A stretch of DNA of 64,000 nucleotides from Apostichopus japonicus. Taxonomy: Eukaryota > Echinodermata > Holothuroidea > Aspidochirotida > Stichopodidae. Made by a program: the position numbers and the translations under genes. Below the pieces are notes generated by a model. The model was not told where the DNA came from. It ran no database searches and was given only the letters and a program-made list of their open reading frames with translations. Below, piece by piece: positions 1,473 to 62,744 of this stretch (position 1 is its first letter; each line of letters starts with the position of its first letter). The stretch spans positions 21,466,499 through 21,530,498 of the forward strand of contig NC_092565.1 of assembly GCF_037975245.1 (NCBI RefSeq), written 5' to 3'.

Positions 1473-1598
1473 GGAAAGGACCTGAGCGCGAAAACTAAAC
1501 AACCGAACGACTGGTCCTCTCTCAGCCCGTCCTTGCATCGAGACTGTGACTGTGTGATCATCGTCAGGTGTGTATCACGATTTCCCTGGAAGGGGAAC
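1473..1598 (-). ncRNA. Unidentified small-RNA-like repeat, copy A
   Basis: This segment aligns along its whole length with 62588-62731. In the block ccttgcatcg...tatcac (about 48 bases) I count only three mismatches, all transitions. Read on the minus strand both copies begin with the same potential stem (TTCCC...GGGAA with a 6-8 base loop), followed by a second small hairpin. I do not recognise it as tRNA, 5S, U1-U6, U11/U12, 7SL, 7SK, Y, vault, RNase P or MRP RNA. Copy A has no clear A-tail or target duplication and is probably the older copy. It could be a retropseudogene or a SINE of unknown source RNA. Confidence 0.5.
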
Positions 1599-1624
1599 AT
1601 AATATGCTACATCTTAGCCCCCCA

Positions 1625-1880
1625 AAAAAGCCGAAAAACAATCTACATGTACTCAGTATAAAGTTCAACAAAGAAGTGCTTCTTGATTTATTGTTTACAA
1701 AGGTTATCAGACTTTGACTCATGTTGACCTCCAATGACCTTTGACCTCTACCAATTTAAATAGGGTTCTTTTAATAGGGTTCTTCACCAACTTCCTGGAT
1801 GCACATACTAAGTATATGAAATTCAACAAAGATGTAAATTTATATCAAATCAAAGAATACGTATGAGGGGGATGGGCACA
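1625..1880. repeat. Dispersed repeat with nuclear-receptor half-sites
   Basis: Contains ttgacctccaatgacctttgacct and then a weakly conserved block (accaatt, agggttctt, aagtatatgaaattcaac). Similar blocks occur at 15890-16110, 43600-43850 and 45100-45470. At 1735-1747 lies tgacctttgacct, the complement of a perfect AGGTCA DR1 element. Probably the body of an old transposon shared by these loci. Confidence 0.6.
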
Positions 1881-26213: not shown

Positions 26214-27478
26214 GACTACTGTACTGTACTCAGTGTACTGTACTATACCGTGTTCTATACCCTGTACTGTACTATACCGTTTAATGTACTTAACCGTTTA
26301 CTAAACTGTACCGTGTACTGTACTATATTGTGTACTATACCATAACCTGTACTGTACAATACCGTGTACTGTACTTTGTACTGTACTGTGCACTGTATTG
26401 TACTGTGTTTGTTATGTACTGTACTATACCATGTACTGTACTGTACTATACAGTGTACTGTACTATACCCTGTACTATACTATACTGTGTACTGTACTAT
26501 ACTGTGTACTATACTATAACCTGTACTGTACTATACCATGTTCTGTACTGCACTGTGCACTGTGTTGCACGTTGTACCGTACTGTACTTTACTATACCGT
26601 GTACTGTACTATACCGTGTACTGTACTATACCGTGTACTGTACTATACCGTGTACTGTACTATACCGTGTACTGTACTGTACCGTGTACTATACTATACT
26701 GTGTAATGTACTATACCGTGTACTATACTATAACCTGTACTGTACTATACCGTGTACTGTACTATAACCTGTACTGTACTATACAGTGTACTGTACTGCA
26801 CTGTACACTGTATTGTACTGTACTATACCGTGTACTATACTATAACCTGTACTGTACTATACCGTGTACTGTACTATACCGTGTACTATACTATACCGTG
26901 TAATGTACTATACCGTGTACTATACTATAACCTGTACTGTACTATACCGTGTACTGTACTATACCGTGTACTGTACTATACCGTGTACTATACTATACCG
27001 TGTAATGTACTATACCGTGTACTATACTATAACCTGTACTGTACTATACCGTGTACTGTACTACTGTATAACCTGTACTGTACTATACCGTGTACTATAC
27101 TATAACCTGTACTGTACTATACCATGTACTATACTATACCGTGTACTGTACTATACCGTGTACTGTACTATACTGTGTACTGTACTGTACTGTGTACTAT
27201 ACTGTACCGTGTACTATACTATACCGTGTACTGTACTATACCGTGTACTATACTATAACCTGTACTGTACTATACCGTGTACTATACTATACCGTGTAAT
27301 GTACTATACCGTGTACTATACTATAACCTGTACTGTACTATACCATGTACTGTACAGCACTGTGCACTGTGTTGTACGTTGTACCGTACTGTACTATACC
27401 ATGTACTGTACAATACCGTGTACTATACTGTACTGTGCCCAGTATTGTACTGTACTCTACTATACCGTGTACCATACT
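26214..27478. repeat. 17-bp satellite (TGTACTGTACTATACCG), ~1.27 kb
   Basis: About 74 units of the 17-mer tgtactgtactataccg and variants (tgtactatactataacc, tgtaatgtactatacc). Because 17 is not a multiple of three, each frame cycles through the same 17-residue peptide, giving open frames of up to 241 codons that are not genes. The variant taatgtactataccg recurs near 26704, 26901, 27003 and 27297; one interval is 102 bp (six units), hinting at higher-order amplification. It lies in intron 5. Confidence 0.93.
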
Positions 27479-29914: not shown

Positions 29915-30635
<721 letters not shown>

Positions 30636-30697
<62 letters not shown>

Positions 30698-30698
30698 A
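30636..30698. repeat. (TA)n microsatellite at the LINE truncation point
   Basis: Nearly pure TA run with one atacat interruption. It separates the LINE fragment from the tRNA-like SINE head to its right. Confidence 0.9.
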
Positions 30699-30734
30699 AT
30701 GAAAATCGTAATGAGTTGGAAAATCAAGAACAGT

Positions 30735-30850
30735 GAAAAAACTTCCAGCCTCCACCCGAATTCGAACCAAGGCCTCCCGCTCTGTATGCGGACACCCTAA
30801 CCAACTAGGCTATGGACGCTGATTGTGTGTCCAGAGGTTCGAAACCGGTA
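30735..30850 (-). mobile_element. tRNA-derived SINE head
   Basis: On the minus strand TAGCCTAGTTGGTTAGG fits an A box and GGTTCGAATTC a B box, about 35 bases apart, within a tRNA-like segment (gcgtccatagcctagttgg ... gagcgggaggccttggttcg). The distal pairing is imperfect, so this is a SINE or tRNA pseudogene rather than a tRNA gene. It points toward the LINE fragment, so the two could be parts of one SINE/LINE-tailed composite. Confidence 0.65.
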
Positions 30851-34802: not shown

Positions 34803-34885
34803 ACACCTACAGACACTTCTCTTCATACAAATCAGACTATTCCTACAGCACTAATGTTACTCATGTACAGTGAAAGTGCTTTAAA

Positions 34886-35824
34886 GTACAATAGCTCCAC
34901 TACTACTAAAGTACAGCAGCTCCACTAAATACTAAAGTACAATACAGTAGCTCCACTACTACTAGAGTACCGTAGCTCCACTAATACATAAGTACAGTAG
35001 CTCCACTAATACATAAGTACAGTAGCTCCACTAATACATAAGTATAGTAGCTCAACTACTAATAAAGTATAGTAGCTCCACTAATACATAAGTTTAGTAG
35101 CTCCACTAATACATAAGTATAGTAGCTCCACTAATACATAAGTATAGTAGCTCCACTAATACATAAGTACAGTGTAGCTCCACTAATACATAAGTATAGT
35201 AGCTCCACTTATACATAAGTACATTAGTTCCACTAATACATAAGTATAGTAGCTCCACTAATACATAAGTACAGTAGCTCCACTAATACTGTACATAAGT
35301 ACAGTAGCTCCACTACTAATAAAGTACAGTAGCTCCACTAATACATAAGTATAGTAGCTCCACTTATACATAAGTACATTAGTTCCACTAATACATAAGT
35401 ACAGTAGCTCCACTACTAATAAAGTATAGTAGCTCCACTAATACATAAGTATAGTAGCTCCACTAATACATAAGTATAGTAGCTCCACTAATACATAAGT
35501 ACATTAGTTCCACTAATACATAAGTACAGTAGTTCCACTAATACATAAGTACAGTAGCTCCACTAATACATAAGTACAGTAGCTCCACTACTAATAAAGT
35601 ACAGTAGCTCCACTAATACATTAATACAGTAGCTCCACTAATACATAAGTATAGTAGCTCCACTTATGCATAAGTACAGTAGCTCCACTAATACATAAGT
35701 ACAGTAGCTCCACTAATACATAAGTACAGTAGCTCCACTAATACATAAGTACAGTAGCTCCACTACTAATTAAGTACAGTAGCTCCACTAATACATTAAT
35801 ACAGTAGCTCCACTAATACTAAAG
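34886..35824. repeat. 25-bp satellite (AGTAGCTCCACTAATACATAAGTAC)
   Basis: About 37 units. Each has agtagctccactaatacata followed by agta and a C or T. Recurrent variants are the tac/tat end, agttcc for agctcc, and a shorter unit ending ctactaataaagtac. The shorter unit is spaced irregularly. Intron 2, about 1 kb upstream of exon 2's 3' side in plus coordinates. Confidence 0.93.
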
Positions 35825-40229: not shown

Positions 40230-41046
40230 GCTACTGATTGCACACAGATTACTATATAGTGAGAGTGCTGGGAGCGCTTAGCATTCTAAAGGTACAGTAT
40301 CTTCTGGTGGACCTACGCAGCTGATGCTGAACAAACTTGCTTGTACCAAAAACCAAAAATGTAAAGAATATATCACAAAATGTCAAGATTTTGATGAAAC
40401 AGTCGTAGGTTCGAGAAGAAGTGGCAAATTCTCAATACAAAAGACACATACTGCAGAGACAATAAATGCTAGAAGCTTTTTATATGCAATGAAAACTCAT
40501 GTTCAGTTCTCTCAAAACATTTAATCATTTTAATATTTTGCAAAATGGAAGCCACAATCAAACATTTCTTTGATCAAGTACTGTTGGAGATTCTGTGAAT
40601 AGAATGTCAATTGTCCACTTACTGTAGGATCTTGGACTTGTTTTAAGTGCCTTGGTACGTAGCTCTTCTTCAGAAAGGTCATTCTCTTGAGGGTGCTTTC
40701 AACCAAAGTTAATCTTTTACTCTTTTATACAATTAAATGCTTTGTTAATATTGAAATCACTTTTACTTTCTGTTTCCCACAGTTGAACTGTAAAAGTTAT
40801 CCTCATTTTTCAGTGAACTTTTCATTCATTAAATATTTCTTTAAATTTCAATGACAATGTCTGGCTTAAACAAAAAGTAAAGAAAGATTGATGCATGCAT
40901 GCGAGGCTTACAGTATACAAACTCTATGAAGCTATCACACACTAGAGTATTAATCAACTAGTTTGGCATGATATTTTGTACACAAACTAAACTTCAATTT
41001 TAGATAGAGCTTGCAAGTGTGTCTGTCTGTAAGAATTCATGTTTAG

Positions 41047-43318
41047 AATCGAGGCTAAATACAAATACAGTAGCTTTCAGACCCTGATAGAATCGAGGCT
41101 AAATACAAATAGCTTCCAGGCCCTGATAGAATCGAGGCTAAATACAAATAGCTTCCAGACCCTGATAGAATCGAGGCTAAATACAAATAGCTTCCAGACC
41201 CTGATAGAATCGAGGCTATATACAAATAGCTTCCAGACCCTGATAGAATCGAGGCTAAATACAAACAGCTTCCAGACCCTGATAGAATCGAGGCTAAATA
41301 CAAACAGCTTCCAGACCCTGATAGAATCGAGGCTAAATACAAATAGCTTCCAGACCCTGATAGAATCGAGGCTATATACAAATAGCTTCCAGACCCTGAT
41401 AGAATCGAGGCTATATACAAATAGCTTCCAGACCCTGATAGAATCGAGGCTATATACAAATAGCTTTCAGACCCTGATAGAATCGAGGCTAAATACAAAT
41501 AGCTTCCAGACCCTGATAGAATCGAGGCTATATACAAATAGCTTCCAGACCCTGATAGAATCGAGGCTATATACAAATAGCTTCCAGACCCTGATAGAAT
41601 CGAGGCTAAATACAAATAGCTTCCAGACCCTGATAGAATCGAGGCTATATACAAATAGCTTTCAGACCCTGATAGAATCGAGGCTAAATACAAATAGCTT
41701 CCAGACCCTGATAGAATCGAGGCTATATATACAAATAGCTTCCAGACCCTGATAGAATCGAGGCTATATACAAATAGCTTCCAGACCCTGATAGAATCGA
41801 GGCTATATACAAACAGCTTTCAGACCCTGATAGAATCGAGGCTAAATACAAATAGCTTCCAGACCCTGATAGAATCGAGGCTATATACAAATAGCTTCCA
41901 GACCCTGATAGAATCGAGGCTAAATACAAATAGCTTTCAGACCCTGATAGAATCGAGGCTATATACAAATAGCTTCCAGACCCTGATAGAATCGAGGCTA
42001 AATACAAATAGCTTCCAGACCCTGATAGAATCGAGGCTAAATACAAATAGCTTTCAGACCCTGATAGAATCGAGGCTATATACAAATAGCTTCCAGACCC
42101 TGATAGAATCGAGGCTAAATACAAATAGCTTTCAGACCCTGATAGAATCGAGGCTATATACAAATAGCTTCCAGACCCTGATAGAATCGAGGCTAAATAC
42201 AAACAGCTTTCAGACCCTGATAGAATCGAGGCTAAATACAAACAGCTTTCAGACCCTGATAGAATCGAGGCTAAATACAAATAGCTTTCAGACCCTGATA
42301 GAATCGAGGCTATATACAAATAGCTTCCAGACCCTGATAGAATCGAGGCTAAATACAAATAGCTTTCAGACCCTGATAGAATCGAGGCTAAATACAAACA
42401 GCTTTCAGACCCTGATAGAATCGAGGCTAAATACAAATAGCTTTCAGACCCTGATAGAATCGAGGCTATATACAAATAGCTTCCAGACCCTGATAGAATC
42501 GAGGCTAAATACAAACAGCTTTCAGACCCTGATAGAATCGAGGCTAAATACAAACAGCTTTCAGACCCTGATAGAATCGAGGCTAAATACAAATAGCTTT
42601 CAGACCCTGATAGAATCGAGGCTATATACAAATAGCTTCCAGACCCTGATAGAATCGAGGCTATATACAAATAGCTTCCAGACCCTGATAGAATCGAGGC
42701 TATATACAAATAGCTTCCAGGCCCTGATAGAATCGAGGCTAAATACAAATAGCTTCCAGACCCTGATAGAATCGAGGCTAAATACAAATAGCTTCCAGAC
42801 CCTGATAGAATCGAGGCTAAATACAAATAGCTTCCAGACCCTGATAGAATCGAGGCTATATACAAATAGCTTCCAGACCCTGATAGAATCGAGGCTAAAT
42901 ACAAACAGCTTTCAGACCCTGATAGAATCGAGGCTAAATACAAACAGCTTTCAGACCCTGATAGAATCGAGGCTAAATACAAATAGCTTTCAGACCCTGA
43001 TAGAATCGAGGCTATATACAAATAGCTTCCAGACCCTGATAGAATCGAGGCTATATACAAATAGCTTTCAGACCCCAGATAGATTCGAGGCTAAATACAA
43101 ATAGCTTTCAGACCCTGATAGAATCGAGGCTATATATACAAATAGCTTCCAGACCCTGATAGAATCGAGGCTAAATACAAATAGCTTCCAGACCCTGATA
43201 GAATCGAGGCTATATACAAATAGCTTTCAGACCCTGATAGAATCGAGGCTATATACAAATAGCTTCCAGACCCTGATAGAATCGAGGCTAAATACAAATA
43301 GCTTTCAGACCCCAGATA
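41047..43318. repeat. 39-bp satellite, about 58 units, in intron 1
   Basis: Unit: gaatcgaggctaaatacaaa then tagcttccagaccctgata. Units are almost identical and differ at three positions (ctaaa/ctata, aaatag/aaacag, ttcc/tttc). Because 39 is 13 codons, one frame stays open on each strand: 237 codons on plus (ESRLNTNSFQTLI repeat) and 445 on minus (SILSGSGSYLYLA repeat). No splice sites or unique flanking coding sequence support translation. Sequence order shows a 4-unit, 156-bp higher-order repeat. First and last units are degenerate, as usual at array edges. Confidence 0.95.
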
Positions 43319-43389
43319 GAAATTAGGGGAACTGTGGTTTTTGTAATAATAGCTCCTACATCTGGGAAGAGGCTATTTCTTTCATTCTC

Positions 43390-60204: not shown

Positions 60205-60612
60205 GTCTCACGGGCTGGTGGGTCGTGGATCTTAATATCGATTCTAAGGGTCTGTATCGGGTTCTGGTGGGTCGTGGCTCTGAGCGTCGGTATAGAGAGG
60301 CTGCATGGGTGTCAAGTGAGTCGTGTCTCTTAACATCGATTCTGAGGGGCTGCATAGAGGTCTAGTGGGTCGTGGCTCTGAGCGTCGATTCTGAGGGTCT
60401 GTATCGGGTTCTGGTGGGTCGTGGCCCTGAGCATCGATTCTGAGGGGCTGTATAGGGGTAGGGGTCTGGTGGGTTGTGGCTCTGAGCATCGATTCTGAGG
60501 GGCTGCATGGGGGTCTGGTGGGTCGTGGCTCTGAACATCGATTCTGAGGGGCTGTATCCCCGGGGGCCTGGTGAGTCGTGGCTCTGAGCATCGATTCTGA
60601 GGGGCTGCATGG
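60205..60612. repeat. ~50-60-bp minisatellite, about seven copies
   Basis: Unit: ctggtgggtcgtggctctga, gc-atcgattctgaggggctg. All three minus-strand frames stay open for 85-116 codons because of the repeat. A very strong pyrimidine tract and AG (TTCTTCTTTGACCTCCATGCAG) precede it on the minus strand, and the frame 60244-60604 would join the exon at 62246-62429 in phase and end at TAG; this is compatible with, but not evidence for, a repeat-coding terminal exon. Confidence 0.75.
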
Positions 60613-62564: not shown

Positions 62565-62744
62565 ACAAGTAGGATGTTTTTTTTTTTAAGGAAAAGTCGC
62601 CCAGGAAAGAACATGGGCACGAAAACCAAACTACCAAACGACTGATCCGCTCTCAACCCCAGTCCCCTTGCATCGGGACTGTGACTGTGTGATCATCGCC
62701 AGGTGTGCATCACCATTCCCCTCGAAAGGGAACAAGTAGGATGT
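62565..62744 (-). mobile_element. Retroposed small-RNA-like copy B with A-tail and 13-bp TSD
   Basis: acaagtaggatgt occurs at 62565-62577 and again at 62732-62744. Between them, on the minus strand, lies a ~144-base body (62588-62731) followed by an A-tail of about 10 bases (the T-run at 62578-62587). These are the hallmarks of target-primed reverse transcription of an RNA. The body matches 1473-1598. Its 5' end can form TTCCC...GGGAA, then GGTG...CACC, then a perfect AGTCCC...GGGACT stem. It is not a recognised RNA class. The intact duplication indicates a recent event. Confidence 0.85.

Follow-up and report, generated by a model that had tools for sequence, protein, structure and literature searches.

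A U2 snRNA-headed SINE of Apostichopus japonicus that probably inserts into U2 genes

SINEs usually, though not universally, have an internal Pol III promoter made of an A and a B box. The promoter of an snRNA gene lies outside the transcribed part, which makes the transcription of SINEs headed by a Pol II snRNA puzzling. In 2015 Kojima reportedly linked crocodilian SINEU to a LINE of the Tx1 clade, the clade to which Keno belongs, and SINEU is said to prefer a Mariner repeat as its target. The class SINEU, which comprises SINEs with an snRNA head, is named in passages of PMC8010984, PMC5753468 and PMC4455052. PMC4640811 describes Keno as a LINE that targets U2 genes with an APE endonuclease, and Utopia, with which Keno has the U2 3' flank in common, as a U2-targeting LINE with a restriction-like endonuclease; several families can occupy one array, and crocodilian Utopia also inserts off target, where the sequence resembles U2, as TAGTATC does. 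The SIDEs of R2 and R1, according to PMC3414825, are short non-autonomous passengers in rRNA genes that are co-transcribed with their host; they derive from LINEs by internal deletion and carry a ribozyme that cuts off the host RNA.

The element described here, like SINEU, is a SINE whose head derives from the 5' end of an snRNA gene, and on its sequence we class the family as a retroposon, a SINE with an snRNA head of the Repbase class SINEU. Unlike SINEU, it is also found inserted in U2 genes, where U2 upstream sequence precedes it. Because its head carries the host's own U2 variant, an origin separate from that of crocodilian SINEU is likely. We consider it probable that the SINE targets U2 genes at the site used by Keno, comes under the U2 promoter there and gives rise to further copies with a U2 head. 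Jointly with this full model, and with the same good confidence, we interpret the feature at 62565-62744 of our window (the whole stretch of DNA analysed, 64,000 nucleotides) as a 5'-truncated off-target insertion of this snRNA-headed, U2-gene-inserting SINE. The occurrence of the same element within U2 genes suggests how such elements capture the start of a splicing RNA together with its promoter, and one life cycle would join snRNA-headed SINEs, U2-targeting LINEs and SIDE-like passengers of RNA genes.

The window holds two copies of the family, with the following features:

62565 to 62577, no strand: target-site duplication (TSD) on the A-tail side, ACAAGTAGGATGT on the plus strand, matching 62732-62744 at 13/13 positions
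62578 to 62587, minus strand: A-tail of the SINE (a T-run on the plus strand), 10 bases; the genome copies sampled have A-rich tails in the same place
62588 to 62734, minus strand: 5'-truncated U2-headed SINE, 98% identical to family consensus positions 40-195
62732 to 62744, no strand: target-site duplication on the element's 5' side, its first 3 bases overlapping the element
1473 to 1599, minus strand: body of an older second copy of the SINE, 84% identical to the copy above
1600 to 1637, minus strand: decayed U2 head of the second copy, placed by blastn to the family consensus

The initial annotation had described a perfect 13-bp direct repeat around a minus-strand body with an A-tail, and we found exactly this arrangement, with a body of about 145 bp. 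A bare 13-bp repeat is not rare: although 30 simulated first-order Markov windows contained on average only 0.47 pairs of 13-mer repeats 80-400 bp apart, the real window has about ten other clusters of exact 13-mer pairs at this spacing, tandem arrays excluded. The weight of the repeat comes from its exact bracketing of a repeat-family body with an A-tail. Because the ACA at 62732-62734, within the right-hand repeat, also belongs to the element (as TGT, U2 nt 41-43), the duplication may be read as 13 bp, or as 10 bp with 3 bp of microhomology at the junction. The copy begins within U2 nt 41-45, so that U2 nt 1-40 are missing, and its body is complete. Its A-tail is not followed by GTA.

A second copy had also been reported. 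It is present at 1473-1599, but its limits had been set too short: the element reaches to about 1637, since the part upstream is a decayed U2 head. Both copies lie on the same strand and are identical at 110/131 positions (E = 8e-35), differing by 12 transitions, 5 transversions and two 2-base gaps; the best block in their alignment is, as described earlier, about 48 bases long with three transitions. With blastn, consensus positions 5-170 correspond to window positions 1637-1473 (E = 4e-39), and the second copy is about 18% from the consensus of the copies, head counted in. Rfam does not recognise the decayed head at 1600-1637 by itself. A search for a decayed duplication flanking the second copy gave nothing better than random flanks (0.36 of the null was as good). 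Its 3' end resembles that of the first copy marginally with the A-tail included (P 0.02) and not at all without it (P 0.36).

The body had further been called structured, with a TTCCC/GGGAA stem at the 5' end in both copies. The motif does occur in both, in the second only through a shift of register, but it is not at the 5' end of the family RNA. As for structure, on the minus strand neither window copy folds better than shuffled sequence (z = -0.36 and -0.06); the plus strand of the 62.6-kb copy gave z = -2.5, and the full-length family consensus folds better than shuffles (z = -3.4).

We counted the family in the window's own assembly (671,581,487 bases, about 672 Mb, in 35 contigs). A 22-base core, allowing at most two mismatches, had 2,192 matches in the genome (1,140 + 1,052), and the reversed control had none. 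The genome check of copy number, A-tails and TSDs that had been proposed for the locus thus gave 2,192 core matches, A-rich tails and duplications of 8-29 bp. The density is about one core match per 300 kb, and two copies in a 64-kb window are above the mean; five random 10-kb stretches of the genome contained no copy of the SINE, consistent with this density. Viral, GTDB, plasmid and phage collections held nothing for the exact cores or the element. Six viral contigs had a 17-nt match, which we attribute to chance, there being no extended similarity to the element.

For a closer description we collected 81 distinct copies, of which 11 lacked the 3' end and were dropped from the TSD and tail counts, leaving 70. 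The copies were picked by similarity to the two window copies and are not a random sample. The full element is about 187 nt plus a tail: the first 45 nt of the host U2 snRNA, a body of about 142 nt, and the A-tail. A consensus built from 35 near-full-length copies is identical to host U2 nt 2-45 at 44/44 positions, including T30, where host U2 also has T and the Rfam consensus has A. U2 nt 1 is missing from this consensus, many copies beginning at nt 2-5; the start lies at nt 1 in 17/70 copies and within nt 1-5 in 35/70. Divergence from the consensus ranges from 0 to 18% (74 copies), with several copies at just 0-1%; in a similarity-picked sample this is not an age profile of the family.

Rfam returned only noise for both window copies. 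U2 (RF00004) surfaced in the fuller genome copies: it matched 8/10 submitted loci at E <= 0.01, seven of them above the gathering score, and in the two alignments displayed U2 nt 1-45 are paired while the rest is passed over. In other words, the source RNA, taken for an unknown small RNA in the initial annotation, is recognisable from the sequence of its head, which comes from the host's own U2 snRNA. This origin was invisible in the window because the 62.6-kb copy, truncated at its 5' end, has no head left and that of the other copy has decayed. The suggestion of a SINE without a tRNA, 5S or 7SL head held up, there being no Rfam match to any of these in either window copy at E <= 5 or in 10 genome loci at E <= 0.01.

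Retroposition, also proposed earlier, was corroborated by the flanks. By our own criterion, 36/70 copies reaching the 3' end have a TSD, compared to 13/277 mismatched flank pairs. At multi-copy loci direct repeats may stem from the cluster itself, and we therefore also counted without these loci: 27/52 copies have a TSD, of 8-29 bp. Head-to-tail clusters of the SINE, spaced about 193-203 bp apart, occur for example at L031 (G000:C19:15491396-15493383) and L029 (G000:C5:10952558-10954108). In these two the SINE may have inserted repeatedly into A(n)GTA tails or may have been amplified locally; L029 and a further cluster, L034, have the look of insertion into such tails.

The host U2 genes are mostly clustered. 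Among the scored genes, 42/46 lie in a tandem array on contig C16 at 645-bp steps, and four places are on C15. All 30 of the host U2 genes fetched (L084-L113) have AUCAUGUGUAGUA where the Rfam consensus has AUCAAGUGUAGUA, just upstream of GUAGUA, which we take to be the segment that pairs with the branch site.

We searched the genome with 150 bp of U2 upstream sequence joined to the SINE. From 2,690 first-look candidates, 40 places were scored; four proved to be SINE-interrupted U2 units, all in the C16 array, with the caveat that tandem arrays can be mis-assembled, and at the remaining 36/40 the upstream sequence and the U2 start matched and nothing further. Three of the four were read: two of the three full-body units and the one with a truncated body. 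All three have the same order: U2 upstream sequence, the 5' part of U2, the SINE, and U2 again from nt 35. The unit at L113 consists of U2 upstream sequence, U2[1-45], the body, a short A-run and U2[35-193]; L092 and L093 are one single interrupted unit of the same layout. In these full-body units the repeated U2 bases, AGTATCTGTTC, form an 11-bp target duplication. A separate unit has U2[1-53], a 5'-truncated body, an A-run and U2[35...], with a 19-bp duplication, and on this structure we regard it as an independent insertion at the same nick position. Two distinct insertion structures, with TSDs of 11 and 19 bp, therefore both resume at U2 nt 35. SINE-interrupted U2 genes appear to be new here. 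A literature search by title and start of abstract found no U2-gene-homing or promoter-capturing SINE, which is a weak negative given that its coverage omitted the SINEU paper and most subscription papers.

LINEs occupy the same array. Reverse transcriptase matches with long open frames lie among its U2 genes, and several LINE 3' ends adjoin U2 nt 35, exactly like the SINE. Two of these nt-35 3' ends contain zf-RVT, CCHC knuckles are present in frames at two LINE 5' ends, and an APE endonuclease (E = 5.5e-18) is encoded by the LINE situated between L112 and L113. This APE-bearing LINE fits Keno, the APE-type U2-targeting LINE of animals, and the U2-site LINEs look Keno/Tx1-like. The likeness to Keno is that an APE-bearing LINE and the SINE of this array both resume at U2 nt 35. 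The SINE itself differs, Keno being autonomous and kilobases long while the SINE is about 187 nt plus a tail, with no common end sequence detected: the body had no clear match among eight LINE end segments (the lowest P, 0.08, was for the L091 5' end), and a comparison with four LINE 3' ends gave no common 3' sequence above shuffles. Recognition of the poly(A) type would need no such common sequence. With Utopia the array has in common that U2 genes are targeted, that several families are present and that off-target insertion occurs at U2-like sequence, whereas the one LINE typed here has an APE endonuclease and not a restriction-like one.

Other LINEs of the array behave differently. The 3' end of another family, also with zf-RVT, adjoins U2 nt 38 at L095, L104, L105 and L108 in the C16 array. 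A different LINE is present at L089 and L090 (G000:C16, about 31.040-31.048 Mb); in L089 its RVT_1 match has E = 1.3e-31. It lies upstream of a U2 gene, seemingly within the spacer instead of at the U2 nt 35 site, and the same frame is in the same position at both loci.

We propose the following life cycle. The SINE would insert into U2 genes by target-primed reverse transcription at nt 34/35, the site of the Keno-like LINE. Because an embedded copy lies behind intact U2 upstream sequence, which contains the promoter, it would be transcribed from that promoter together with U2, as U2(1-45)-SINE-A(n)-U2(35...). The enzyme of the Keno-like LINE would then mobilise this hybrid RNA, copying it into other sites and priming at or within the first downstream U2 nucleotides (GTATCTG). 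Embedded copies would in this way serve as sources, and the outcome would be copies scattered over the genome that begin with a U2 head and end in an A-tail, often followed by a few U2 bases. Like a SIDE, the SINE would be a short, presumably co-transcribed passenger within a multicopy RNA gene; the difference from SIDEs is that the 5' end of the host U2 is kept and spread by the SINE.

The bases after the A-tail bear directly on this model. In the array, the U2 sequence following the SINE is GTATCTG. We counted how many of these bases directly follow the A-run in the 70 copies, and took as background 50 kb of host DNA drawn at random, which contained 708 A-runs. At least 2 nt of GTATCTG (2-7 nt) were present in 46/70 copies against 47/708 background A-runs, and at least 3 nt in 41/70 against 16/708; without multi-copy loci the counts were 36/52 and 32/52. 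The remaining 24/70 copies have fewer than two of these bases. In 14/36 TSD-bearing copies (12/27 without multi-copy loci) GT or more stands between the A-run and the duplication; these bases lie outside the duplication and therefore came with the RNA. In another 7/36 the duplication itself begins with GTA, in keeping with priming through annealing at U2-like sites, so that target preference accounts for part of the tail signal. We lean towards the view that the snRNA head and promoter were gained by insertion into an snRNA gene, not by template switching, and that off-target insertion of the read-through RNA seeded thousands of U2-headed copies, many of them 3'-tagged. With a SINE inside U2 genes, a LINE site and U2-tagged dispersed copies all in one genome, an origin by insertion and hitch-hiking becomes directly testable.

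The main rival is template jumping onto U2 RNA. Here the reverse transcriptase of the LINE would jump from the SINE RNA to U2 snRNA, transcription would start from some other promoter, and the embedded copies would be a by-product. Recurrent addition of U1 and U2 heads to crocodilian SINEU, reportedly described by Kojima in 2015, counts for such jumps, and jumps to an snRNA are documented for R2, with U12 snRNA at R2 5' ends, in PMC3414825. The embedded copies also speak for it to some extent. The two full-body copies read share a short deletion, CCTTAGGG for CCTTTCGAGGGG, which was present in no dispersed locus searched; they are therefore not the exact sources of the sampled copies. Template jumping, however, would not lead one to expect U2 sequence from nt 35 on behind the A-tail, nor copies that sit behind U2 upstream sequence with U2 target duplications. 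The evidence on another promoter is divided. The U2 head contains TGGCTAAG, by eye a candidate A-box core, so that Pol III may transcribe the element, which counts against transcription from the U2 promoter, while in the bodies of both window copies, the only sequences searched for A and B boxes, the best matches were no better than shuffles, which counts against the rival. On balance we judge template jumping to be improbable, and retain insertion into U2 genes as the preferred reading.

The original interpretation of the locus, retroposition of a lineage-specific small RNA of no known kind, is very unlikely. The headless window copy, for which no Rfam family matched, agrees with it, but 65/70 of the sampled copies reaching the 3' end retain some or all of U2 nt 1-40, which refutes this origin for the head, though not for the body, and the 2,192 core matches with one recurring chimeric structure also oppose it. 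That the copies are U2 snRNA pseudogenes or a satellite and not a SINE, as U2 similarity and some tandem clusters of about 200 bp might suggest, is hardly credible, given that only U2 nt 1-45 are present, fused to a constant non-U2 body, in mostly single copies with TSDs and A-tails.

The window contains several other features. A tRNA-like sequence at 30747-30819 on the minus strand (Rfam tRNA, 42 bits; tRNA-Cys by ARAGORN) immediately precedes an (AT)n run and a LINE fragment, and is perhaps the head of a tRNA-type SINE, or else a chimera. The open frame at 30244-30723 on the minus strand resembles, by eye, the C-terminus of a LINE; it has no Pfam match, and its 3' UTR ends in TTGAATTGAT(AT)n. 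Ten open reading frames of the window searched against Pfam gave one sub-threshold GCN1 HEAT match. A minisatellite at 41044-43321 has 58 copies of a 39-bp unit with 95% matches and is open in several frames, and further minisatellites occupy 26217-27472 (17-bp units), 34884-35819 (25-bp units) and 60215-60607 (49-bp units).
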